Shown: piece by piece, positions 1-33,660 of the stretch
Layout: each line of letters opens with the position of its first letter
How positions within the stretch are numbered: the stretch's first letter is position 1
NCBI GenBank assembly: GCA_036245805.1
Contig: BTRK01000002.1
Span: 8,490,689 to 8,554,688 of the forward strand
Source: Pristionchus mayeri
Lineage: Eukaryota; Nematoda; Chromadorea; Rhabditida; Neodiplogasteridae
Reading direction: 5' to 3'
DNA: 64,000 nucleotides
Position numbers and translations under genes: made by a program
Notes under the pieces: model-generated
What the model was told of the DNA's origin: nothing
The model's database searches: none
What the model saw: only the letters and a program-made list of their open reading frames with translations

Positions 1-1934
1 GTGTTCTTCCCTCTTTGTTCTGGTCACATAGGTAGGGTATCACCCATCATATGCCGTACATTTTCGTTAGCGTATCATTACAAATATTATGTATCGCTTC
101 AATCATCAACAACAAAAGTACAGAGATGACCTACATAGTAGAGGCATTGTACACCCTTTCTTGTGCATTCGTGTTATTCCCTCGCTAGCTTCTCACGCTC
201 ATTTTGCCATTTCATTTTGTAGGCGGGCACTTGCGCGATGAGTTGAGGATTTTGCATTAATGCATATTCCTCCGTATTGCTGTATTATCTAGCGATATTA
301 GGAATCATTGTTTCGCACGAAATTCAGGGAAGCGCGGCGAAGAGACATCATTCCTAAGGAGGCTAAGCCATGCATAGTGAATCCTAGCGAAGTACCAGGC
401 GAATGACAAAAAAGTCCATCGAATAAAGGAGAGGAGAGGACCAAACCAGAACAGAGGTGGACTCTTCATCCAGATAAGTGCTTGAAGGTGGTATCATAGC
501 TTCAAGGCGCTTAGGATACGTCCTAGTCAACTACTAGATGATTCCAGAGAGAATACGCTATGCACAACCCCAAACTTTCATTTGCCCACCCAAACCCCAT
601 TTATGCCATTTGTCCACCGAAATCCCGGATTGTCCACCGAAACCGTACAGCTCGCTCATTTGTCCACCCAATCCGTACAGAGCCCAAAATTTGTATTTAT
701 GTAGTGTTTTCAGATGTAAAGGACAAGGTAGAACGAATTGAGCTCGTCGAAGCTGCTGCTCCTTCTGCTGAATTACAATATGTTATGTATGCGGAGAAAA
801 ATTAGAGCGAATACTTTATCATGCGTAGTAATTTCATTGTCACATGAGCATTTTTTTAAAATTTGATGGTAAACACAATTCCTATCAATTCTGTATACTG
901 TCATTTACTCAAATTAAATATCAATATCATGTAATGAATCGACTTCCATTTAATTAGAACTATTTTTTTGATTTCGTGCTAAATGAGGTGTTGAGACGAT
1001 CCCTTGACGCTAGGCTTTCTCATTATGAAGTGTGTAGTTCGTGACTAGACTTCTAGAAGCTCATTCTTTATCAGTGGCTCCGACCAAGTGTGGAAGGCTA
1101 GTGAGGTGGAAGGCTTTTATAACGTCACAGAAGAATCGACAACCGATTGATAACTCTATGAACTATAGATGAAATTGCGTCAGAATCACTTCACTACACA
1201 TTCGTTACCTGGAGACCAGGTGAATTATTTTGTGTCAAAATACTGAGTTCAATTCTAATTAAAATGGGATACAACCCGGAATTGACAACGATTCACCCCG
1301 CTTGGGGGCTCATTCACGCCGCTAAGTCAGTGTAAACGATGTGCCACTCTCCGTCAACGTGAAGTCGCTATTGTTGAGTCGTATTTCAAACATATCACAA
1401 GTAGAATGGAGGACTGGCCATTCGATGTATTGAGGACATTTTAATTTTTTTCTGGATTTTTCATATATGTTTGCAAATCAAAAGACACTAGGGTGACTAA
1501 ATGACTCTTCGAGTCGTCGTTTAGAGTCGTGACCTCGCCTGAGATTCGGGTCGATCAGGTCAGATCAAATCCCTCGTTTAGTGGATGAGTCGTTTCACCT
1601 CTGATCCGAAACCTTTCGCCAACCTATAAGCCACACATCGTTTAAGAACCTGTCGGTTACGGAATTCAACGATAGAAATGAGAAAATTTTGAAATCGTCG
1701 GTGAGTAATTCCTATAAAATTTGGCAAATTTACTCTTTCGTTTTCAAAAGCATCGATCTCGGCGTCTCTTCTTTGGATGTTTTATTGACTTCGAGGCTAG
1801 ATAAGGCTGTGCATCGCCATTTCCCTCTCATTCCCACACTCGGCACGTGTTTCCTACGCGACAACTTGGGCTTACCCATCTTCTCAGTCTACATAGGAGG
1901 TTGCAAGAATGAGACATACAGTTGGGCACTACGA
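1..1934. other. No supported gene
   Basis: AT-rich sequence with short open frames that lack splice context or family features. Around 575-680 a short motif (tttgtccacc and close variants) recurs several times, a small imperfect tandem repeat. I see no RNA gene or transposon end here. Confidence 0.5.
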
Positions 1935-2004
1935 CGGATGATAACTATGACGAAATGCCGCTTTTGATGTGTCAAAGGCGGCATGCCGTCATAGTTCTAA
2001 TCCG
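1935..2004. repeat. 70-bp hairpin repeat (family A, best copy)
   Basis: A near-perfect short palindrome: the left arm starts cggatgataactatgacg and the right arm ends cgtcatagttctaatccg. The core reads atgccgcttttgatgtgtc. Related, partly decayed copies lie at about 6,010-6,050, 12,473-12,537 and 36,549-36,597, the last inside an intron of a receptor gene. This pattern fits a tiny non-autonomous hairpin transposon. No autonomous partner was recognised. Confidence 0.7.
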
Positions 2005-2116
2005 ATCTAGTGCCTTCAGTTGTGCTTAAGTTGATGCCTGTTCTGCAAGTACGAGGGTTGTCGCTTCAGGTATTTTGTTCACTTTCAGCATTTATGCGTT
2101 AAAGAGGCGAAATTTG

Positions 2117-2421
2117 TGGCTCTGTTTTCGAATCGGGGTCCCATCTGCAAATCGGGGTCCCTGAAAAAAATCGAGGTCCGATAGACCGTCATGGGACCCC
2201 GATTATTATCGGGGTCCCATCTGCAAATCGGGGTCCCAATGACCGATCAGCGACAGCAAATATTATCGGGGTCCCAAGAAAGATCGGGGTCCCAAAAAGA
2301 TCAGGGTCCCAAGACAAATAGGGATTGCTAAAAAATATCGGGGCCCCAAAAAAATCGGGGTCCGATAGATCGTCATGGGACCCCGATAATTTTTTGGGAC
2401 CCCGATTCGAAAACAGAGCCA
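2117..2421. mobile_element. 305-bp foldback element made of 'atcggggtccc' units
   Basis: The ends are perfect inverted repeats: tggctctgttttcgaatcgg on the left, with its reverse complement at 2,402-2,421. They are flanked on both sides by aatttg (2,111-2,116 and 2,422-2,427), a likely 6-bp target duplication. The interior is built almost entirely of the 11-bp unit atcggggtccc and its reverse complement, so both strands can fold. An open frame on the minus strand across it only reflects this repeat. It is probably a non-autonomous foldback transposon; the superfamily is not clear. Confidence 0.7.
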
Positions 2422-2799
2422 AATTTGGTTATGCAAATGTGAAACATTTGTAAATGCTCACTAGAATTTAGCAATCAATATGTCTTTACTCATTGTATTG
2501 ATGTTACAGAATTATATGATAAAACATGTATTTATGTTTTCGGAAAACCGTAAGTGTTACAGGAAGAATCAATAACGAGAAGATAATAATCACTTCATCA
2601 ATCATTAAAGTAAATTCACACGAACTGCACATCAATGCCTTGAGGCGACTCGACTCGTTCCTCAATCGAATTGGGGTCGGTTTGTGACGAAGTAGGCATA
2701 GCCCCATTCCGCGCAGAGATATAACGATCGTACTTGAAAACTACCTACAATGGATGTTGTTTTGTCAAAACAATGTGTCAAAACAACATGTCAACCTTT

Positions 2800-3400
2800 A
2801 AAGGTGATTAAGGACGATGAAATGCTGCATACCACAATAAGAGTTGCATACACAGCAACCACAAACACGAAAACCCCCGCAGCAGTTGGAATCTCTAAAA
2901 AGTATATTTCTTGACGATAAGAAAACATATTTACCAAGATTCTTCAGGACGCTAAAGTTGTGCCATCGTAAGTCTTCTATCACGTAGAAAGGGAACTAAA
3001 GCAAGTATTTTGTATTTTTATTCACAAACACCATAGCCAAACTACTCAAATCTGAGATTGTTAGGAGAAATGACAAAACTAAATAAGTATGACTCCCTGA
3101 CCATAGCAGTGATCCAAATTCTGCATGCAGTCGGACTCTCGCCACAATCAGCTACCGTAATTACCACAATAATTGTTAACTCCCACGAAATATAGAAGAA
3201 GAATGTGTGGATCGAGTGGAATCGGAGGTTGTGATAGCAACCTTTGATGGAAGATTGAAATGTACAATGCATAAATTTTCAATAAAATGAGGATGCGCAT
3301 GATTTACCGTCTATGAGCAAGAATATGTTGAGGAGGACGGAAAAGAGAGAAACAGCTCGTTGGAGTATCTGAGAAAAACATATATATCGTAACATGTGCA
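2800..3400 (-). pseudogene. Possible 7TM chemoreceptor remnant
   Basis: Two hydrophobic stretches can be read on the minus strand: ILQRAVSLFSVLLNIFLLID near 3,310-3,370, which resembles a first transmembrane helix, and IPTAAGVFVFVVAVYATLIV near 2,840-2,900. The second echoes PASAGVFFEF in the receptor gene at 49.8-52.1 kb. I could not join them into one open frame, so this is at best a decayed or poorly resolved receptor gene. The rest of the interval to about 3,830 has only short frames. Family assignment is weak. Confidence 0.25.
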
Positions 3401-4178
3401 AACATGATGTCAAACATTCACTCATTTTTTCAATAGAAGTGCATTATGTGACACAAAAGCAACTTAAATTTCAAGTAATGCATGAATTATGAACAAAAAT
3501 AAACTGCTATGTGGATTCCGCAGCAACAGTGAAAATTCCGCGCATATTCGTCGAATGACTCGGTCATTTTACGGACGTTCACGACACTGCCTAGAATGAC
3601 GAATGATAAAGAATCTACAGTGACAATAACATGGACATTGAGAGAACAGGATCTTAAGAAGTATGAAAAAATTCTATAATGATGGCTTTGCAAATCTGTG
3701 AAAAGTTCAGACTCGAGTGATTGACACAGAGTTGTGATAGGAAGCAACGGGGAAGTGTCCGTCGAGGGAGGCAAAGAGAACATGCGGTGAATCGAGTTAG
3801 CCTCCAGGACTGAGAGGAAGACTGCACTCAAACAAATTACTGTCCCCGTTCGATTGGAGCTTGCACGTTATAAATACATTTACAAAGTGAGTCATTCAAA
3901 CGTATTTATATCAATGATTGAGCGGTTGGCGATTCTACACTGTCACTAGTCATTTCGGTCATTTGGGAGTGCGCGAGAGTGCATGCGATAAATCAACATA
4001 GTTGAGACAATATTGTACTCAATCAAATTGCAACTCAATTTGATTACATATTGGACGATATTAATTTTCTGGAGTAAATTATCTCGTCTATAATTTGAAG
4101 AGTTCTTCGGATCATTGAAGAAATTCGGGGGCGAGAAAGAGTAGTCGAAGTGAAGAGAGTGCTACTCTGCTCTCTATT

Positions 4179-5655: not shown

Positions 5656-6563
5656 AAAAATGGGGTCTACGTCATTTGTCCCTTTCGAAAATCTAGAAAA
5701 AAACTATTCATTAGTTATACATTCGCTCTTTTTCCTCTTTACTCCTTCCTTTCTCCATATATTAAATATATCAATCTCCATATATTAAATATATCAGAAT
5801 TGAAACTAATCGGAACCCCTCCACAAGCTCGCCTGAGTCTAAACCACATATGGTCCTCATCGAGGCACCCCCGCTCCATGAACGATGTGGAAAATACAAA
5901 TAATAATAAGAATGATATTATAGTAATACGTTACCACTGCCTGAGCTTCTGTCGTACCCAATTCCGTTATTGAACATTTGGATGCATCCCTGTGAAAATG
6001 GCACTAATTCGGATGAGAACTATGACGTATCAAAGGCAGCATGACGTTTTCGATATCCAATAATTTATTTACCTGAACTTCACTTGGAGCGCAAAATCCA
6101 TGAAGAATGCGACCGTAGTTGTAATAATAGCTGAAAATATTATTTATTATTGATAACAATTTTGCGATTGCGCGTCCACAAAATAGTTAATCTTGCGGAT
6201 TATCGTATATTAATTGTTCATTTCGAAACAGCACATAGATGCTCTACCACTGAGTTAAGCAACCGATGATTGTCTACCCTCCTAGCTCTATGATTTTGTG
6301 GGGTGGGCTAGGTCATGATTTTGACATCGTTTTTAATTTTTTTATTTATTTTTTACATAACATTTTTTTTCGATAGCACAATTCGAAACGTACTTTAGGG
6401 ACCAGAAGCACCCCGGCGACGGAGGATTGTTCTGAATCCAAATATTAATTGTTTTATTTTTATTTTTTTAAATATCGCATACGTTTTCCTGCTCGAAAAT
6501 CATTTTTCGCCTGCTCAATTTATAAATGATCGTTAGGATTATAAATACGAAGTGACCGCCTAC

Positions 6564-6691
6564 CGTTCTGGGGGTGGTCGTAGTTGGTGCTGTAGTCGTT
6601 GTCGTTGATGTCGTCGTGCTTGTCGTTGTTGTTGGAGGAATCGAAGTGGTGGTGGTTGTTGTTGTCGTGGTTGTGGTCATAGGAGGAGGCG
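6564..6691 (-). CDS. Threonine-rich (mucin-like) exon
   Basis: Read on the minus strand, this 128-nt exon begins after a tttag acceptor, encodes APPPM followed by long Thr runs broken by Pro, Ser and Ile, and ends TPRT before a gtaggc donor. On the plus strand it looks like a GTT/GTC-rich microsatellite. A shorter sister with the same APPPTTT start lies at 14,816-14,870, but its donor is gone. Repeated Thr tracts are typical of O-glycosylated stalks. Confidence 0.5.
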
Positions 6692-8215
6692 CTAAATCGA
6701 ATATTTTTGGACATTTTTTAAACTAAATTTTATCATTCTGTGCAAAGGTTGCCATTAATTATGCTACTTTTCGGCAATGTTTCTGGCGCAAAAAGAACAT
6801 GCCAGCAAATGATGAAAAAAATTGTCAATAATATGAAAATCATAACACAAATTCACAGTATTCGTCGTCCCATCGAAGAGCTCGAGGGTGTACGTACTGG
6901 TCATTTGGCCGGATGCACCTGCTAAACAAAGGAACACCGAATTTCAGAGTGTCGTTGGTCAGTAATTAATAAGAAGTCTAAATATAGGGATCGTCTATAT
7001 TCGTATTCGAAAGCCGATTGATGATAAATAACAATCATGACGTTAAATGAGAATCGGGAAATCGGAGAAATGTTCCGAACATACAATGATCATCTCAAGA
7101 ACCAGGCTTGATTCTAATTCGAGTATGCAAGAGTTCGCAACTATCTAGTCGTTTCACTCAATTTCTCCGCCGGTCTATCCACAAAAGATTAGGGATAATA
7201 AAAACAACGACAGCCTAATTAAGCGCTCTTGATTATCCTAATCCGAATATCATGGTAAGAAAAGCATTAGGGACTAGTGATGCCAAATCGGCGAGCGCTC
7301 TCCTCCTTTCCCACGCTCTCTCGCTCTGTCTGACCGGTGAGAGAGCGTGTGAAACGAGGAGAGCGCGCGCCGAATTGCCATCACTATTAGGCACCCAGCT
7401 CACCTGTCCAAGGTCCGCAATCAAAACTCTTGACAATGGTTCCATCCTTCATTTGCAGGGCCAAGTCCGGTTCGCAGAGTTGGTTACCATATTTCTTTAT
7501 AGCGAACACTTTTGTCTCCTCGACGTCGTTTGCCAAATTTGCCGCGCAACATTCTGCAAATGGCTGTATTTATTTAATATTTGAATCGAAAACAATCGCA
7601 CATGCATGCAAGTAATAAATGTAAGCAATTGCTACCATTAGTGATGCCAAAACGGCGCGCGTTCTCCTCGTTTCACACGCTCTAAAGTCGGTCAGACCGA
7701 GCGAGAGAGCATTTGAAACGAGGAGAGCGCGCGCCGCTTTGGCATCACTATTTACCATCATTTAGAACTGTGCCTGCGGCTTCGACGCAATTTGCCTGAA
7801 ATGAACAACGATCAATATGTTGGTATATCATATTTAGACTATGTGTTCAATGAATGTAAATCTCTCCAAAACAAAGGTAAATGATAAAATAATACACAAA
7901 TCTCACGCTTAGAGGCATCCTCGTATGGATTGCGTCATTGATAGACCTAAACAGTTGAGTTCGAAATTCATATATTTCTTCATTCGTCACGCTATATCGA
8001 CTGATCGATCAATCGAAGAGAGAGTGCATACAATGAAGAATTCTCGAACTAAGCAGAGGTGTTACGTTTAGTGTTCAGTCTAATTCGCAGCTTTGATTCA
8101 TGATAAATGAAAATTTTTTAGCAAATCTCATTGGAACTTGCAATTTCTTCGAGGTAGGATCACATTTGAAGTCTCCCATCCACCATACCATCGGACCACC
8201 GATGTCAAATCTCTG
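6564..8215 (-). CDS. Candidate multi-exon Cys/Thr-rich secreted protein
   Basis: Several exon-like blocks with good splice signals lie in order on the minus strand. About 8,160-8,215 contains DIGGPMVWWMGDFKCD. About 7,760-7,800 contains ANCVEAAGTVLNDG. 7,404-7,563 contains FAECCAANLANDVEE and DGTIVKSFDCGPW, with acceptor aatacag and donor gtgag. About 6,857-6,921 contains MTSTYTLELFDG after a tttag acceptor. 6,564-6,691 is almost all threonine and proline, after tttag and before gtagg. Cys-bearing blocks followed by a Thr-rich, probably O-glycosylated linker suit an extracellular nematode protein. No signal peptide or start was found and the last exon is missing. Two 108-bp hairpin elements sit in its introns. 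The linkage of blocks is inferred. Confidence 0.4.
7277..7384. mobile_element. 108-bp hairpin transposon (family B), copy 1
   Basis: A palindrome starting gtgatgcc and ending with the complementary atcac, flanked by TA on both sides (7,275-7,276 and 7,385-7,386). The arms read ctctcctcctttcc-cacgctctctcgc against gcgagagagcgtg-gaaacgaggagag in loose outline. TA duplication and small size suit a Tc1/mariner-type MITE. It lies in an intron of the candidate secreted-protein gene. Confidence 0.75.
7641..7748. mobile_element. 108-bp hairpin transposon (family B), copy 2
   Basis: Same length and same ends (gtgatgcc ... ggcatcac) as the copy 260 bp away, again flanked by TA (7,639-7,640 and 7,749-7,750). 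The arms match as ggcgcgcgttctcctcg against its complement. Looser relatives with ctctc-rich arms occur at about 12,148-12,247, 34,505-34,595 and 53,541-53,640. Confidence 0.75.
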
Positions 8216-8399
8216 AAGTATCATTTATTTTATATTTTAAACAAAAATATCTTACCACTAACGAAGCACCCGGTCCATTTTGACAAAAAACAAACACTGG
8301 ATCTGAAAAACAATATATTTTACCTCCAAACCAAATGAAACACACCTATTGTAACGTTAAAAATGACTGCAAAGATCGGGTCTTTGCACGATTTTCGGG

Positions 8400-9250
8400 C
8401 AGAATCTTGAGAATAAGTTGGGGTTCGGGCAAAGAATGATATCTAGCGAAACGGGTATGATACTGCGACGAAAACTGAGAAGCAATGGTAAAGAAAACAC
8501 ACTAATGGCCATCAAATATAGAGATGAGCAAATAATCGCAAATACCGAAATGGTGATTTCGATCATTGAATCGCTCTCACACTATTCGCATCACAATGTT
8601 ATTTCCATAGTGATTGATATTTTTGATGCAATTTTACTAGTCATGATCCCACTCGGAAGCTGTCCATTTTCGCCGACATTTTCGATAGAACTGTAGAATA
8701 GACTAGAAAATAATAGAATGTTAAATAATGGAATAAAGAATGGAATACAACTAACTACTGCCGGCCTCCGTGAACGAGAGGCGTGGATACCATAGGGCGT
8801 CTATCGGAGGCATATCACAGGTATATGTTGCCCCTGAAATGCTAGAATTTAAAATGAACGATACCGAGGATGCTTCGAAAAACATTCTAGACTTTAAAAA
8901 ATATTATTATAAAACCACGGATACTTCCCATACTAGAGATTTCCCTTCCGAATAATTTAAACCTCCGATAACAAAAGAAACACTAACCAGAAGACAGGCG
9001 AATCGAACACAGGCAGAAAATGAGCAGGAGAAGTTTCATCCTTGAAAGAGTGATTTCTCCTAATCCAACCGCTACTTATACCAGGAAATTTAAGCCTCCT
9101 TCAATCTTTGTTTCTTTCAAAAAAAAATTGACCCCCTGACGCACATCAACGAGTGCGAGAGGACGCGACTTGAGGAGAGTTCTCTCCATATTTGAAACAT
9201 ATTTCAACCAGACGCGTTTGCTGAGAGTCATGCTTTAAGAGGTGTTTTAT
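8400..9250. other. No supported gene
   Basis: Open frames of 60-90 codons occur on both strands, but none has splice context, hydrophobic segments or a recognisable motif. No repeat ends were seen. Confidence 0.4.
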
Positions 9251-26951: not shown

Positions 26952-27151
26952 CTGAAAAACAGCATTAATGAATATTTAAACTACTGTCATTATTCATACA
27001 ATTAACAGTTCTGAAACGAGGGTTTATAAAAATATTTGCCATCAAAGTATACATTACTTAATTGCTGACATTCACCGAAGCACTAACAACAACAACGCAT
27101 ATAACAAGAAATGAAAGCTGATGCTCTACTACATGGCCAAATAATTCCAAA

Positions 27152-28250
27152 GTCACCCCGACTTTGAGGGGGCTTTTACCCCCTTCAAAATGTATAACTT
27201 TTTGGCTATTTTTGGCTATGGGCTTCTTTCGTCAAGGTCTATCGATTGGTGTACTCAGATCTGCATATTTCCCATTTGGTCTTTGATCTTGGCGGTCTCC
27301 CGCCTCCTCCCCCCTCCACTCATTTCCATACTCCCTTGTGTGGGAGAGAGACCTTTGTTTCCATTCCACTCTTTCAATTCTGCTCACATCGTTCGGTTGG
27401 TTAGTGCTTTCGCTTGTTGGTTCGACTCGCTTTCAGATATCCATACAGCGTATCGGCTACAGTATCCAGACGGGAGATTGAGCCAGATCAACTAACGCGC
27501 AGCACTTTCGCACTGGAATCATGTAAGATGGGTGCCGATTTGGAGTCAGAACAGTAAGCTTTCCATGCCGTTTATTGATTCATCGATCTTCAGGTGATCT
27601 ACCGTGTATTCTTGTCATTTTTTTCGATTCAAGAGATCATGATGCATTTCTTGTTAGCCAACTTTTTTATGATAAGGAAAGTTAATTCGAAGGAAAAAAT
27701 GGTGAAATTTGTCTTTTAAGTTTAAAAACAATTTTTATTTAAAAAATTCAATAAAATGTTGAGGTACCGTAATTCATAAATTTGATCCAAACGGAAAAAT
27801 GTTTGACGTGGAACGGAAAAATCACAACTCTTTCTTCGACAGAGCTCCCTCATTTTAAAACTTTTACGCTTTTGATTCGCTTGTTTTCTTTGGATAATCG
27901 TTATGTGTGATGTGATCGCATGTTAATTCCAGTCCCACTTGGCTCACTCGCCTCCTCGCCCATTAGGATTCATTCGAAGAATGGAGTTGCAGTCCTTATC
28001 AGATGAGTCCATCCTTTCAATTTCGAATCAGCACCCATTAGGGATTAGATCGAACAGGTGTATAGCTTGTGAGGAATGTCTTTGCAGCGTGGGTCCGCTA
28101 GGATCCATTTTTAAATGGAACTTCTCGGGAAGTTGTGAAAAAAGGAGCGAAAGAAGAACTTTATCAAGGACATGTAACAGGTACATCTTACATTATACAC
28201 TTAGAATAATACTAAAACAACGATGAACCAGGGCTTAATTAGGACGGGGC
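27152..28250. repeat. Left 1.1-kb terminal inverted repeat
   Basis: Pairs with 31,555-32,654. It contains open frames of up to about 100 codons that appear identically in the other repeat (for example 27,939-28,226). They have no known domain and lie downstream of both internal genes, so they are probably not coding. Confidence 0.9.
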
Positions 28251-28293
28251 ATTAGATAATATCGTAATATCATTTTTTTAAAATCTATTGAAG

Positions 28294-29680
28294 CTAGAAC
28301 TCAAAGTCAGAATGGACCGAGTTATCGCGATCCATCGCAGATCCCTCCCCGTCTCCCATACTCATGCGCTCATTATATTCTCCCTCCCTCTCATCCTCAT
28401 ATTCATCATTCACTCTATTAGCATGAGCAGCATTATCCAGATCGATGGCGTCGCACTCCTCTAAGTATGAAATGAGCGCTGGCTTCTGGATCGAGTAGGT
28501 GTCAGAGTTGATGCGACGTCGGTTGTTCCAGTTAATCCTGTAGTTATTCTATCAATAGTTCCAAAAGAGTATTCCCTCACGCCCTCGCGACTGGCGACCA
28601 CTTCGTCGAGAAATCCTGTTCACTATTGCAGCGGAGAGCAAGGAATGTCTAAATGATCAGTCCAATCACTTTCGAAAAGTCTTAGGTACCTCTCTTACAT
28701 ACACCATTTTAGCAGGATTCCTCTTCTGAAGAGGAATAAGGTGCTCTGGGGTATCGTGGAAGAGAGCATCCACGAGCTCTCTTGCGAACTCGAGGTCTCT
28801 GGGGGCTTTGAGGGAAAATTCAGCCACTTTCTCACGGGGGAAATAGTCCCGGGCTCTCCCTAGAAACAAGAAATTCAGTTGAAGGAATTCAGTTGTATCA
28901 AACTTACTCTGCATTACTGGCTTGGTAGCCATGTTGTCTTTAATGAATGAAAGAACACTCATTATTTCCTTCTGATTCTCCCTCAATTCGTTAGTCTGCT
29001 CTGCTAACTGGGCGACCTATAGGAAGGAGTTCATTGTTAGTCCATTAAACTTGTGCTTGACCATAATCTAAAGGGACTCACACTGCTTCTCGTAGCTTCT
29101 ACAACGGGTCGAAGGAGATTAATTGCAATGGAATTGTCAGCAGGGGGAGGAGGAAGAGGGACACTCTGTCTAAATATTCAGCGGTTTTACTTCTTTCGTT
29201 TCTGAACTACCTGGTAGTAGATGCCGCTGCAGCCGGTGGAGCGAGAAAGGAGACCTGCCGAGATTGAGACCGAGGTTCTAAAGAAGATAAATCAGTTGTA
29301 TTTAATTTCAGATTTGACACCTCATTTCACTGGTCGCAGCTGGTGCGAGAGAACTGCTGGAGCTACAGTAGAGGGAGCCTCATAGAGGGAGACATCTCCA
29401 TCTAATTACTCGTTTGTTTATGTTGACTTGTAAGATAACAAGCATAAATTTACTGATTGCTGTGCACTCTTATTGACACACACATAGGGGGTGGAGGTCA
29501 AAATTTCTGACCAGATTCTTCCGCGAGTGCGGAACGCACGCTGGCAGTAGTGGGTGGAGGGAGGGAGGGGTGAGTGGAGGCAGCTGAGGCAGCTTTCCTC
29601 TTCCTAGTCAGCATCTTAGTCGGCTCCGCACGCGTCTGCCCCTTCCTCGTGGATGAACGAGCTCCTGATATGGAATTCAC
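28294..29680 (-). CDS. Second gene of the Tc1-like element, coiled-coil protein of unknown function
   Basis: Exon-like blocks run from about 29.68 kb. The first has a basic N-terminal region with KMLTRKRKAASAAS, then Pro/Ser-rich sequence. At about 29,090-29,170 comes PPPPADNSIAINLL and LRPVVEATRSS. At 28,920-29,020 comes VAQLAEQTNELRENQKEIM, a likely coiled coil. After a 48-nt intron the core reads ARDYFPREKVAEFSLKAPRD, then ELVDALFHDTPEHLIPLQKR and MVYVREVPKTFRK. A last block has NWNNRRRINSDTYSIQKPAL and a very acidic tail ending at 28,294. A frame change near 28,550 may be a lesion or an unresolved intron. I do not recognise the family. A basic, coiled-coil, acidic-tailed protein beside a transposase could be a DNA-binding partner. 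Confidence 0.6.
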
Positions 29681-30224
29681 TCACTCATCCATCAGGACTA
29701 GACGAGGGTACGATGAACATAATGCACAATTGTATCGAAGAAGTGGTATGATACTGTATATGTACTCATTGAGTGGAGAGAAGTAATGTAGAATCACTCA
29801 CTTGGCTCCCTCCTCATGAATGCAAGACAGTCTGCCTTACTCCCCACAAAAATTGTCTTCCTCTCAAATAACATCCCGAGTGAATGTAGATAGGTTACTG
29901 TAGCAGGGGGGTTGGTGCAAACTCAACCAGCTCTTATGTCGATGACCGGGCATATCTCTCTCAGAGTTGGGTCATTTGGGCATTCACCCACGAAGAATGA
30001 CATCGTTCTGGTCTCAAAAGAACTCTTTAAACACTTAGAAAACGATAGAGACGACCACACAACAGAACAAGAAAAGATGAGAATGCATCTGATTTCAATA
30101 ATCCCTTTGTTCTCTGACACTTCCTCGACTATTCATTACCATATAGTGTCATTCATTTATCGATTTTATCGTCTCTCTTGTTGGTCCATCGTTCATCGTT
30201 ATTAATATTTATTCTCATCTGCAG
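29681..30224. promoter_or_regulatory. Divergent intergenic region of the Tc1-like element
   Basis: About 540 bp between the presumed starts of the two opposed genes, so it should hold both promoters, since the terminal repeats lie at their 3' ends. No TATA or initiator motif stands out. Confidence 0.35.
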
Positions 30225-31551
30225 ATGAATTTGACAAAAGAAATGGAAGATATCTGCAGAGCACAAATGTTCATTGGGAGGAAAGGGAGAGAAATTCATC
30301 GTCATCTCGAAAATTTGAAGCACAAAGTTTCGTACCAATCGGTTCTCACGTTTGTGAAGAAGGAGAACGAAAGGAAATCGGGGACAGCTAGAGTGTACAA
30401 GTGAGATAAGAGTTGACAACATATAGACTTTTGTGAATTGAGAAGAAAAAAATATTTAAGAAGTTATGTGTTCGGAGAAGATAGTGAAAAGGTACAACAA
30501 ATTGTGAAGGATAAATACAAGGAAGACAAGAGGGCCTCAGAACGACAGGTATTGATACTATTCATCTTTTATTAGCGTTCTCGCAACCCCAAGCACTCTT
30601 GCATCTAAACCACGATTCATCATCTCATTGAGATTCGACCTCGAATCAAGAGAGACGAAGATATCGACATCTCTCGATCTGTTTTGCAGTCGATGAAAAG
30701 GGCATCATCACTTAAGACATATGCACCCCTGTACGTATAACAAAATTAGGAAATCTGATCAACTATGATTGCTGTTTCTAGGAGTGTACCAAAGATCAAG
30801 CCTGATCAGGCAGCTCGACGATTATCAATGGTAGAACGATGGATTGCAAATGGGGAACGCTTCGATTACTGGGTTAGAATAGCAAGATAATTAAGTTATC
30901 AACCTCCTCTTAGATATTCTCTGATGAGTGTTCCCTTTCTCTATGCGGGAACACCCATCAAGTAACTACTGACGATGTCGCCGATCCTGCCCGCCTCTTG
31001 CCGACTCAAGCCTTCCCTGAAAAGTCAGTAATTTCTATTCCGTTGTGAATTTAATATGCGTCTTAGGTTGCCGTTTGGGGTGCCATTTCTCGATTGGGAA
31101 GAGGACCCCTCGTGTTTCTAAAGAAAATGGAGAAGCTGAAGGACATATCTCGTACATATCTCGAGATTCTCCAAGAGCACCTTCTTCCCTACATCGATTC
31201 AACCTTTGGGAGACAAGACGCCATCTACATGCAGGACGGAGCGAGATGTCATACATCTCGCCATGCATTGGACACACTCAGAAACCAGTGGGGGATCAAT
31301 GTGGCTGAGTGGGCTCCCTGTTCTCCAGATTCGAGTTTATTTGGAGGGAGCTGAAGATCTTCGTAGAGTGGGAGGTCAAGCCAACCACAAGATCAGACCT
31401 AATCATGGCAATAGAGACCTTTTGGGAAACCAAACTGACCCCTGAGATGTGCAATATGTATTATGACCACTGCATAGATAACGCAAAATCGGTTAAAGCA
31501 GCCAAAGGAACCGCAATTGCAGAACATAGGACCAAACATGTATATAATTAA
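30225..31551 (+). pseudogene. Tc1/IS630-type DDE transposase, broken at the third catalytic motif
   Basis: Cuts and pastes the element through DDE chemistry. ATG at 30,225 follows tctgcag. Exon 1 (to 30,400) has a helix-turn-helix, IGRKGREIHRHLENLKHKVS; exon 2 is 30,461-30,548. Further exons give PKIKPDQAARRLSMVERW, then FSDECSLSLCGNTH (first Asp), VAVWGAISRLGRGPLVF, IYMQDGARCHTSRHALDTL (second Asp) and WAPCSPD. There the frame breaks at 31,329-31,333: FIWRELKIFVEWEVKP continues in another frame, consistent with loss of about 10 nt covering most of the usual LNPIE motif. A possible TAA also lies in the third block, unless an alternative acceptor is used. The C-terminus ends at 31,551, just before the right repeat. 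Confidence 0.8.
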
Positions 31552-31554
31552 TTC

Positions 31555-32654
31555 CCCCGTCCTAATTAAGCCCTGGTTCATCGTTGTTTTAGTATTATTC
31601 TAAGTGTATAATGTAAGATGTACCTGTTACATGTCCTTAATAAAGTTCTTCTTTCGCTCCTTTTTTCACAACTTCCCGAGAAGCTCCATTTAAAAATGGA
31701 TCCTAGCGGACCCACGCTGCAAAGACATTCCTCACAAGCTATACACCTGTTCGATCTAATCCCTAATGGGTGCTGATTCGAAATTGAAAGGATGGACTCA
31801 TCTGATAAGGACTGCAACTCCATTCTTCGAATGAATCCTAATGGGCGAGGAGGCGAGTGAGCCAAGTGGGACTGGAATTAACATGCGATCACATCACACA
31901 TAACGATTATCCAAAGAAAACAAGCGAATCAAAAGCGTAAAAGTTTTAAAATGAGGGAGCTCTGTCGAAGAAAGAGTTGTGATTTTTCCGTTCCACGTCA
32001 AACATTTTTTCCGTTTGGATCAAATTTGTGAATTACGGTACCTCAACATTTTATTGAATTTTTTAAATAAAAATTGTTTTTAAACTTAAAAGACAAATTT
32101 CACCATTTTTTCCTTCGTATTAACTTTGCTTATCATAACAAAAGTTGGCTAACAAGAAATGCATCATGATCTATTGAATCGAAAAAAATGACAAGAATAC
32201 ACGGTAGATCACCTGAAGATCGATGAATCAATAAACGGCATGGAAAGCTTACTGTTCTGACTCCAAATCGGCACCCATCTTACATGATTCCAGTGCGAAA
32301 GTGCTGCGCGTTAGTTGATCTGGCTCAATCTCCCGTCTGGATACTGTAGCCGATACGCTGTATGGATATCTGAAAGCGAGTCGAACCAACAAGCGAAAGC
32401 ACTAACCAACCGAACGATGTGAGCAGAATTGAAAGAGTGGAATGGAAACAAAGGTCTCTCTCCCACACAAGGGAGTATGGAAATGAGTGGAGGGGGGAGG
32501 AGGCGAGAGACCGCCAAGATCAAAGATCAAATGGGAAATATGCAGATCTGAGTACACCAATCGATAGCCCTTGACGAAAGAAGCCCATAGCCAAAAAGAG
32601 CCAAAAAGTTATACATTTTGAAGGGGGTAAAAGCCCCCTCAAAGTCGGGGTGAC
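31555..32654. repeat. Right 1.1-kb terminal inverted repeat
   Basis: Reverse complement of 27,152-28,250 with a handful of single-base differences. This near identity implies recent gene conversion between ends or a young insertion. Confidence 0.9.
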
Positions 32655-33165
32655 ATGGGGTGACACACCGTGCCGCGTCGCGGCGATCCCGTTAGGGGGG
32701 AGACTCTGCGGTACTGTAAAAATATATGCAGATGATATCAGCGTGGGAAGCACATAATGATTGATTACCTTTAATCTCTCCCGTTCGCACCTCACCACTC
32801 ATTTGAAGAGCCATAAGGCCGAAAGGCGGTCAAAGAGATTCCCAGATAACCCCTTGTGGGCTGGGGCGAATTAAAAGTTCATGAGAATGTCGTGAGAATT
32901 AGGTTATAGCATCCTTCTGTTCACACCACATCACTCACTTCGAACTTGGATAGGCCCACCAGGAGTTAGATGCGATATACGTTGAGGGCGCTTTTCGCAT
33001 CACGGTGCGTTAGTGAGTTCCTGGGAATTTGGTAAAAAGCGATTACAAACAGGCATACACACAGCTCAGTTAGCGATATCATGAATCTACATCGTTGTCA
33101 GTGGTGTACAGAGGCATAGACGTTGCCCCAATATCATAGTACGAGAGAGGAGGACATTGGTTTAA

Positions 33166-33339: not shown

Positions 33340-33660
33340 TTGAATTACGATTGTGACTGTGCTTGTAGGGTCTGTGATTGTGTTATGTGTGTGTCTGAAA
33401 TCACAATTTTGTTCCTGATTTTGAAATATTGTGTAATGAGCACAAATTTCATCGGGAAATCAATGAATCGACATATTTGTAGTTTGTAAACGGAAAAGGA
33501 TATGATTGTGATTATTACGACTCTGTTTGTGTTCAATGTGTGTCTGAAATCACAATGTATTAAAGTGCTAATCACAATGTCTTCACGTTCTTGAGCACAA
33601 AAGCTAATTGGAAAATCAGAAAAGCGATGGATGATTGATAATTGATAACATGTGAGTAAT
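33340..33660. repeat. Two diverged direct repeats of about 160 bp
   Basis: The order tgtgtctgaaatcacaat, then gagcacaaa and a gaaaatcag/gggaaatca motif, occurs twice (about 33,385-33,470 and 33,535-33,625). The start is also rich in gattgtga units. Looks like an old tandem duplication; no coding signal. Confidence 0.45.

Follow-up and report, generated by a model that had tools for sequence, protein, structure and literature searches.

A 64,000-nucleotide stretch of the genome of the free-living nematode Pristionchus mayeri (positions 8,490,689-8,554,688 of C2 in an assembly of 290.8 Mb; hereafter the window) contains a Tc1-type transposon in which long inverted repeats enclose both a transposase gene and a second gene read in the opposite direction. 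This second, divergent gene sets apart an element that is otherwise Tc1/mariner by its transposase and its TA ends. As the typical Tc1/mariner layout is a single gene between short inverted repeats, the two divergent genes and long repeats found in the window and in nine relatives mark the element as a variant. We read the window element, with a probability of about 0.6, as a decayed two-gene transposon of the Tc1 type whose partner protein aids transposition, perhaps via arrays of short repeats lying just inside the termini.

Two divergent genes between long inverted repeats

The preliminary description of this DNA had proposed long inverted repeats around two genes, and this layout stood; the intactness of the copy, the right terminus and the start of the second gene had to be corrected. 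The arms align in three blocks (27147-27666 with 32140-32659 at 99% identity, 27663-27799 with 32006-32142 at 97%, and 27795-28262 with 31542-32009 at 99%) and the repeats are real, far above chance. The element spans 27,152-32,716 and is followed by TA. Its right end, formerly placed at 32,654, lies 62 bp farther out, where a second copy on C4 (copy B, locus L063; approximately 98% identity across the element, same layout) and the shorter relatives L064 and L065 continue to align up to 32,718. At the left edge, the sequence outside the portion shared with the window element contained TACAGTACC in 18 of 24 relative rows and a close variant in two, with this type of terminus not seen in the other four inspected (some of the 24 rows show the same element). 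Since TACAG thus lies farther out in 20 of the 24, the left arm of the window element at 27,152 appears to have been truncated by approximately 62 bp plus the TA, and 27,152 was dropped as a genuine alternative terminus. Copy B is also truncated on the second-gene side, at another point (L063 approximately 6081-6095); each copy has lost the outer 50-62 bp or so there, with break points near a stretch of 10-bp periodicity. Among the relatives, TA followed by CAG reads at both ends of L064-L070 and L072, the TA at both ends being characteristic of Tc1/mariner elements as a target-site duplication. In the window element and L071 it reads at the right end alone, and the left end of L071 is AACAG. 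The principal features of the element and its transposase gene are as follows.

27152..28262, no strand: left inverted-repeat arm, second-gene side; outer 62 bp or so and TA missing
31542..32716, no strand: right inverted-repeat arm, transposase side, ending in GCGGTACTG, which is CAGTACCGC from outside
32717..32718, no strand: TA adjoining the right terminus
30004..30224, no strand: presumed shared promoter, the 221 bp separating the start codons (coordinates computed)
30225..30400, plus strand: transposase exon 1, N-terminal region
30461..30548, plus strand: transposase exon 2, predicted by inspection from splice sites and phase
31067..31551, plus strand: transposase catalytic region, with a 10-bp deletion at approximately 31332

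The Tc1-like DDE transposase named in the preliminary description was borne out by a Tc1-type frame running from 31067 with the motifs QDGARCH and SPD. The catalytic fragment of the window copy itself gave no DDE match in Pfam, and that of a relative, L066, matched DDE_3 (8e-9). QQD or MQD, followed by SPDxxPIE, was found in L066, L067 and copy B at hand-counted spacings of 34, 34 and 35, giving triads of the DD34E type in the first two and DD35E in copy B. The triad is not intact in the window copy: the deletion at approximately 31332 removes the catalytic glutamate and shifts the frame, at a site where copy B is intact (SPDLNPIEFIWRELK). With this deletion and a nonsense codon in the second gene (TGA at 29925-29923, CGA in copy B), the window copy is, as judged from its sequence, dead. 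Compared with it, copy B lacks 2 bp of the second gene and 243 bp of the arm next to that gene, and both copies look inactive.

The inner edge of the repeat lay at, or no more than approximately 45 bp from, the transposase stop in the three elements checked (edge/stop 31542/31551 in the window, 4112/4068 in L066 and 2487/2502 in L067). In L066 (6918-6959) and L070 (2171-2236) the last transposase codons are duplicated in the opposite arm, past the second gene, a pattern that would result from inward growth of the long repeats into the transposase. Just outside the window element is a diverged 54-bp direct repeat with a spacing of 149 (33354-33556).

The predicted start codons of the two genes, at 30,003 on the minus strand and 30,225 on the plus strand, confirm the back-to-back arrangement. 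The second gene had been given a 5' limit of 29,680, which misses a conserved first exon (29802-30003); the coiled coil and acidic tail ascribed to its product were recovered as a coiled-coil-like stretch and an acidic tail, such a tail being present in some families. Its predicted parts are listed below.

28294..30003, minus strand: second gene, spliced; Tudor-like domain, linker, coiled-coil-like stretch, BEN-like domain and acidic tail (structures modelled on relatives)
29802..30003, minus strand: exon 1, Tudor-like N-domain, conserved, carrying the TGA in this copy
29512..29614, minus strand: putative exon (MLTRKRK...), by inspection; join to exon 1 tentative
29211..29277, minus strand: putative exon, basic linker, from splice sites and phase
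29082..29169, minus strand: putative exon, proline-rich linker
28908..29016, minus strand: coiled-coil-like exon (VAQLAEQTNELRENQKEIMSVLSFIKDNMATKP); DNMA.K occurs also in P0003
28690..28859, minus strand: first exon of the BEN-like domain
28581..28648, minus strand: second exon of the BEN-like domain (TFLALRCNSEQDFSTKWSPVAR)
28294..28548, minus strand: last exon, end of the BEN-like region and acidic tail; preceding join uncertain

The second gene accompanies the transposase across a large lineage

Genome searches were made with the window transposase (the best 150 of 535 candidates scored) and with that of a distant relative, L073 (the best 150 of 560), so that copy numbers are lower bounds. 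The window transposase fragment was found at no fewer than 129 genomic places. One of these relatives, L066 (transposase 54-57% identical, 1,403-bp inverted repeats at 99.7% identity), has a divergent homologue of the second gene, which as a query gave 131 genomic matches. When these 131, pooled with one of 25 rows from a further search, were set against the matches of the window transposase, 80 of the 99 transposase matches above 38 bits had a divergent partner within 8 kb, four had one on the same strand and 15 had none; near the weaker transposase matches (below 38 bits) no partner was found (0 of 30). In the eight pairs of the class above 90 bits the spacing was a narrow 2.06-2.44 kb. Eight further relatives were read, L067-L072 chosen for their pairing and L073 and L074 only for the second gene, and every one had both genes and inverted repeats of approximately 0.55-2 kb; in the nine relatives read, both genes lay between or within the same inverted repeats, and in the nine compared the partner accompanied transposases with as little as 33% mutual identity.

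Two such genes could in principle come together when unrelated repeats insert or nest by chance, or through an error of assembly, and nested elements do occur in this lineage: L069 (3191-4434, inside the second-gene span) and L071 (4385-5663, inside the transposase gene) contain 28-29-bp inverted repeats together with what is left of another mariner/Tc1-type transposase. The divergent orientation and narrow spacing recur across large contigs, against approximately 0.3% expected at random, and the enclosure of both genes by the same repeats in nine relatives already contradicts such an origin, to which we give a negligible probability.

The pairing extended to more distant families. With the L073 transposase and partner as queries, all 23 members of the L073 family were paired. 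The L073-partner search contributed 47 of its 83 rows (36 were set aside as second fragments or as counted before). Of 44 weak partner matches (E 0.2-4; two of them overlap weak rows of the L066-homologue search), 25 were divergent to, and within 8 kb of, a listed transposase, compared with approximately 0.3% expected at a random point. The remaining 19 had no listed transposase within 8 kb; these include C1:13270704, C3:7871605/7872105 and C2:10238128/10239497, some being close inverted pairs, and they may be solo copies, companions of other transposases or domesticated genes. From the L073-transposase search 97 of the 150 rows were used, 53 belonging to elements already found with the window transposase, and 40 of the 97 were unpaired, 19 of these from a single family (e.g. 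C1:5724160; a 79-aa end piece, 44% identical to L073) in which no second gene was detected; its 19 copies are either true one-gene relatives or have a diverged partner. One weak locus, L075, was seen on inspection to carry the same kind of N-domain (SYCLVKIGDRYEITDRTFIRG...), followed by a coiled-coil-like and after it a BEN-like stretch. Across the genome all 65 N-domain matches (63 places, as two are second fragments) lay upstream of a BEN-domain match.

L074 (C4:43045000-43053500) has arms at approximately 1764-3583 and 6190-8501, the right one reaching the end of the locus, and its second gene lies within both repeats (BEN exon at 2899-3072 and 6701-6874), so that one transposase is flanked by two copies. 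In its transposase pieces L074 matches L073 exactly, and the BEN exons of the two differ at approximately one quarter of the protein.

Homologues of the second gene standing always outside such elements, or transposon copies lacking it, had been named beforehand as grounds for giving up the association. What we saw was mostly the opposite, the same-strand and partnerless transposase matches and the 19-copy family being the part that runs the other way. That the two-gene lineage is large and diverse in P. mayeri is well supported.

The partner is conserved and diverges together with the transposase

Between families, dN/dS was 0.10 for the BEN exon and 0.06 for the coil exon of L069 and L072, 0.14 for the BEN exon of L073 and L074, and 0.03 for the transposase piece of L069 and L072; these values are rough, as the exons are short and two of the four comparisons approach saturation at synonymous sites. 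They indicate that the second gene is under purifying selection. Transposase and BEN distances were strongly correlated across nine families (Mantel r = 0.875, reached by 0 of 20,000 permutations; L074 was left out, its transposase pieces having been seen to be identical to those of L073), and remained so without L069 and L073 (r = 0.80, 13 of 20,000). The sequences thus indicate that the partner has been inherited together with the transposase and its function kept.

These results bear on the two origins offered in the preliminary description, an accessory factor or a captured host gene, and favour the first. Because homologues lie divergently beside related transposases in many families, a recent host-gene capture is not favoured. 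A host gene captured once and carried since as a passenger would account for the 15 transposase copies without a partner; it sits badly with pairing down to 33% transposase identity, with N-domains invariably preceding BEN domains, with co-divergence and with dN/dS well below 1, which contradicts it. On pairing, dN/dS and co-divergence we rejected this explanation as very improbable.

Predicted structures of the partner resemble Tudor-like and BEN domains

Structures predicted for the partner proteins of relatives resemble a Tudor-like domain joined to a C-terminal BEN DNA-binding domain. The model of the N-domain has the five-stranded barrel of a Tudor (SH3-like) fold, and that of the C-terminal core has the helical fold of BEN and aligns with BEND3, BANP, Insensitive, NACC1 and BEND6 at 7-18% identity. 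On these models the domain assignments are fairly well supported. The likeness to the BEN-domain proteins lies in the predicted fold of the core; the partner differs from them in being transposon-encoded, in its Tudor-like N-domain and in having no Pfam or PDB sequence match. In Pfam, none of the spliced partner proteins tried gave a match beyond weak chance-level rows, for which the divergence may be too great, and a profile of the core matched no chain among PDB sequences. Matches of the full-length profile to two gag/capsid chains (E 0.0025 and 0.0082) arose from the low-complexity linker and were judged to be chance, as were those to a Tudor/KH protein chain (0.75) and an effector (1.8). 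The alignment of partner proteins (A5) omits most second-exon pieces.

Arrays with 10-bp phasing lie just inside some termini

Nine ends were examined for self-similarity at lags of 9-12 over the outer 20-120 bp, with 500 shuffles (L065, L073 and L074 left out); the test at lag 10 in the outer 100 bp was made after 8-mers had been inspected and is not independent of that inspection. The strongest lag was 10 bp in eight of the nine ends. No shuffle reached the lag-10 score in the window family, L066, L067, L070 or L071, as against three in L068, 16 in L072, 21 in L064 and 170 in L069. Compared with other windows of its own arm, the end stood out clearly in L066 (25/17), L067 (25/17), L070 (21/16) and L071 (26/19) and slightly in L068 (19/16) and the window family (19/18), and no excess over the rest of the arm was seen in L064, L069 or L072. 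The repeat units (GTAACCCGGG in L066, GTGTCCCCGG in L067, AGTAACCCCC in L070 and GGAGTCCCC in L071) differ in sequence and occupy similar places, approximately 30-70 bp inside the termini. The corresponding stretch in the window is marginal:

32647..32686, no strand: self-similarity of 10-bp period (TGTCACCCCATGTCACCCC) in a subterminal stretch; lag 10 gives 19 of 30 matches, a score reached by none of 500 shuffles, against a maximum of 18 in the arm's other 100-bp windows

Over whole arms, no 8-mer was over-represented clearly beyond shuffles; several three-copy words (L074, L067 and others) were also reached by shuffles. The outer end is kept in several short relatives of the window family. 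L016-L031 share this end, with at least one short inverted pair (L018/L019, approximately 420 bp), and several of them have two GCGGCGAGTC units in tandem near it.

In our reading the arrays are candidate cis sites of either the transposase or its partner. In En/Spm (CACTA) elements TnpA acts on subterminal repeats, and the likeness is that short motifs recur inside the ends, where an accessory protein might bind; the present elements differ in superfamily, in protein and in the 10-bp phasing approximately 30-70 bp from the end.

Discussion

In the two-gene transposon that we favour, both proteins would be produced together, read divergently from a central region of approximately 0.2 kb. The BEN protein, perhaps as a coiled-coil dimer, would bind the element's own DNA, for which the 10-bp-phased arrays are candidate sites, and the bound partner would assist the transposase in end finding, synapsis or cleavage; the Tudor-like domain might link the complex to chromatin or host factors. 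We infer this biochemical role, in which the partner binds DNA at these sites, dimerises, interacts with the transposase and is needed for transposition, and by analogy it may work with its transposase as Harbinger ORF1 does. In Harbinger the Myb-like ORF1 binds the ends, and both ORF1 and transposase are needed (PMC2836001). PIF/Harbinger elements are alike in having two separate genes, one catalytic and one for a predicted DNA-binding partner. They nevertheless belong to an unrelated superfamily: the transposase here is Tc1-like and keeps its N-terminal region, the partner is modelled as BEN/Tudor-like rather than Myb-like, and a need for both proteins is here a proposal. Two points weigh against a helper role. 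The retained N-terminal region of the transposase is one, and the other is that a related transposase, that of ISY100, works without a partner and is all that its element needs (PMC2170065).

A stronger form of the proposal, in which the whole Tc1-type radiation is an obligate two-protein system whose Tudor/coiled-coil/BEN protein binds helically phased 10-bp arrays beside each end and builds the synaptic complex, the Tudor-like module steering insertion or escape through chromatin, is somewhat unlikely, and slightly more so because just four of the nine ends had arrays that stood out within their own arm.

The main rival to a helper in transposition, somewhat unlikely in our judgement, is that the partner is a self-regulator or anti-silencing factor. 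It would bind the central promoter or the repeats and control transcription, or its Tudor-like domain would blunt host small-RNA or chromatin silencing, and it would be selected with the element while acting outside cut-and-paste. Conservation, selection and co-divergence fit this equally well, the two genes have a common 221-bp upstream region, and BEN proteins are known mainly as transcriptional regulators. What speaks for the helper instead is the position of the phased arrays near the termini (among the arm sequences tested) and the outer end kept by short relatives, as expected of cis sites for mobilisation; both are also compatible with regulation.

The elements resemble the Tc1 family of IS630-Tc1-mariner in their DDE_3-type transposase, DD34E or DD35E triads and TA plus CAGT-type termini, and differ from it by a second gene in divergent orientation, by introns predicted for the two genes, by long inverted repeats (approximately 0.55-2 kb) and, in some families, by subterminal 10-bp arrays. 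Nematode Tc1-mariner elements are reportedly covered by Palazzo et al. (2021). Among the top-ranked titles and abstract openings in our literature searches, none described a BEN or Tudor partner in an element of the Tc1 type; repeat databases and most subscription papers were outside their scope, so that earlier unnamed consensus entries are possible. We know of no division of labour between a Tudor/BEN protein and a transposase in Tc1/mariner.

Tc1/mariner elements are the textbook case of single-protein transposition, which is the reason for their use as gene-transfer tools in many hosts. That the second gene has been kept with the transposase across many families suggests that this kind of Tc1 transposon employs two proteins, and a lineage keeping a second, apparently DNA-binding, chromatin-type protein would show that two-part machinery can arise in this superfamily too, independently of Harbinger. 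The many sets of element, partner and site would allow the partner's contribution to end recognition, host range, target choice and escape from silencing to be tested, and the elements may serve nematode genomes as a mobile source of BEN and Tudor-like modules.

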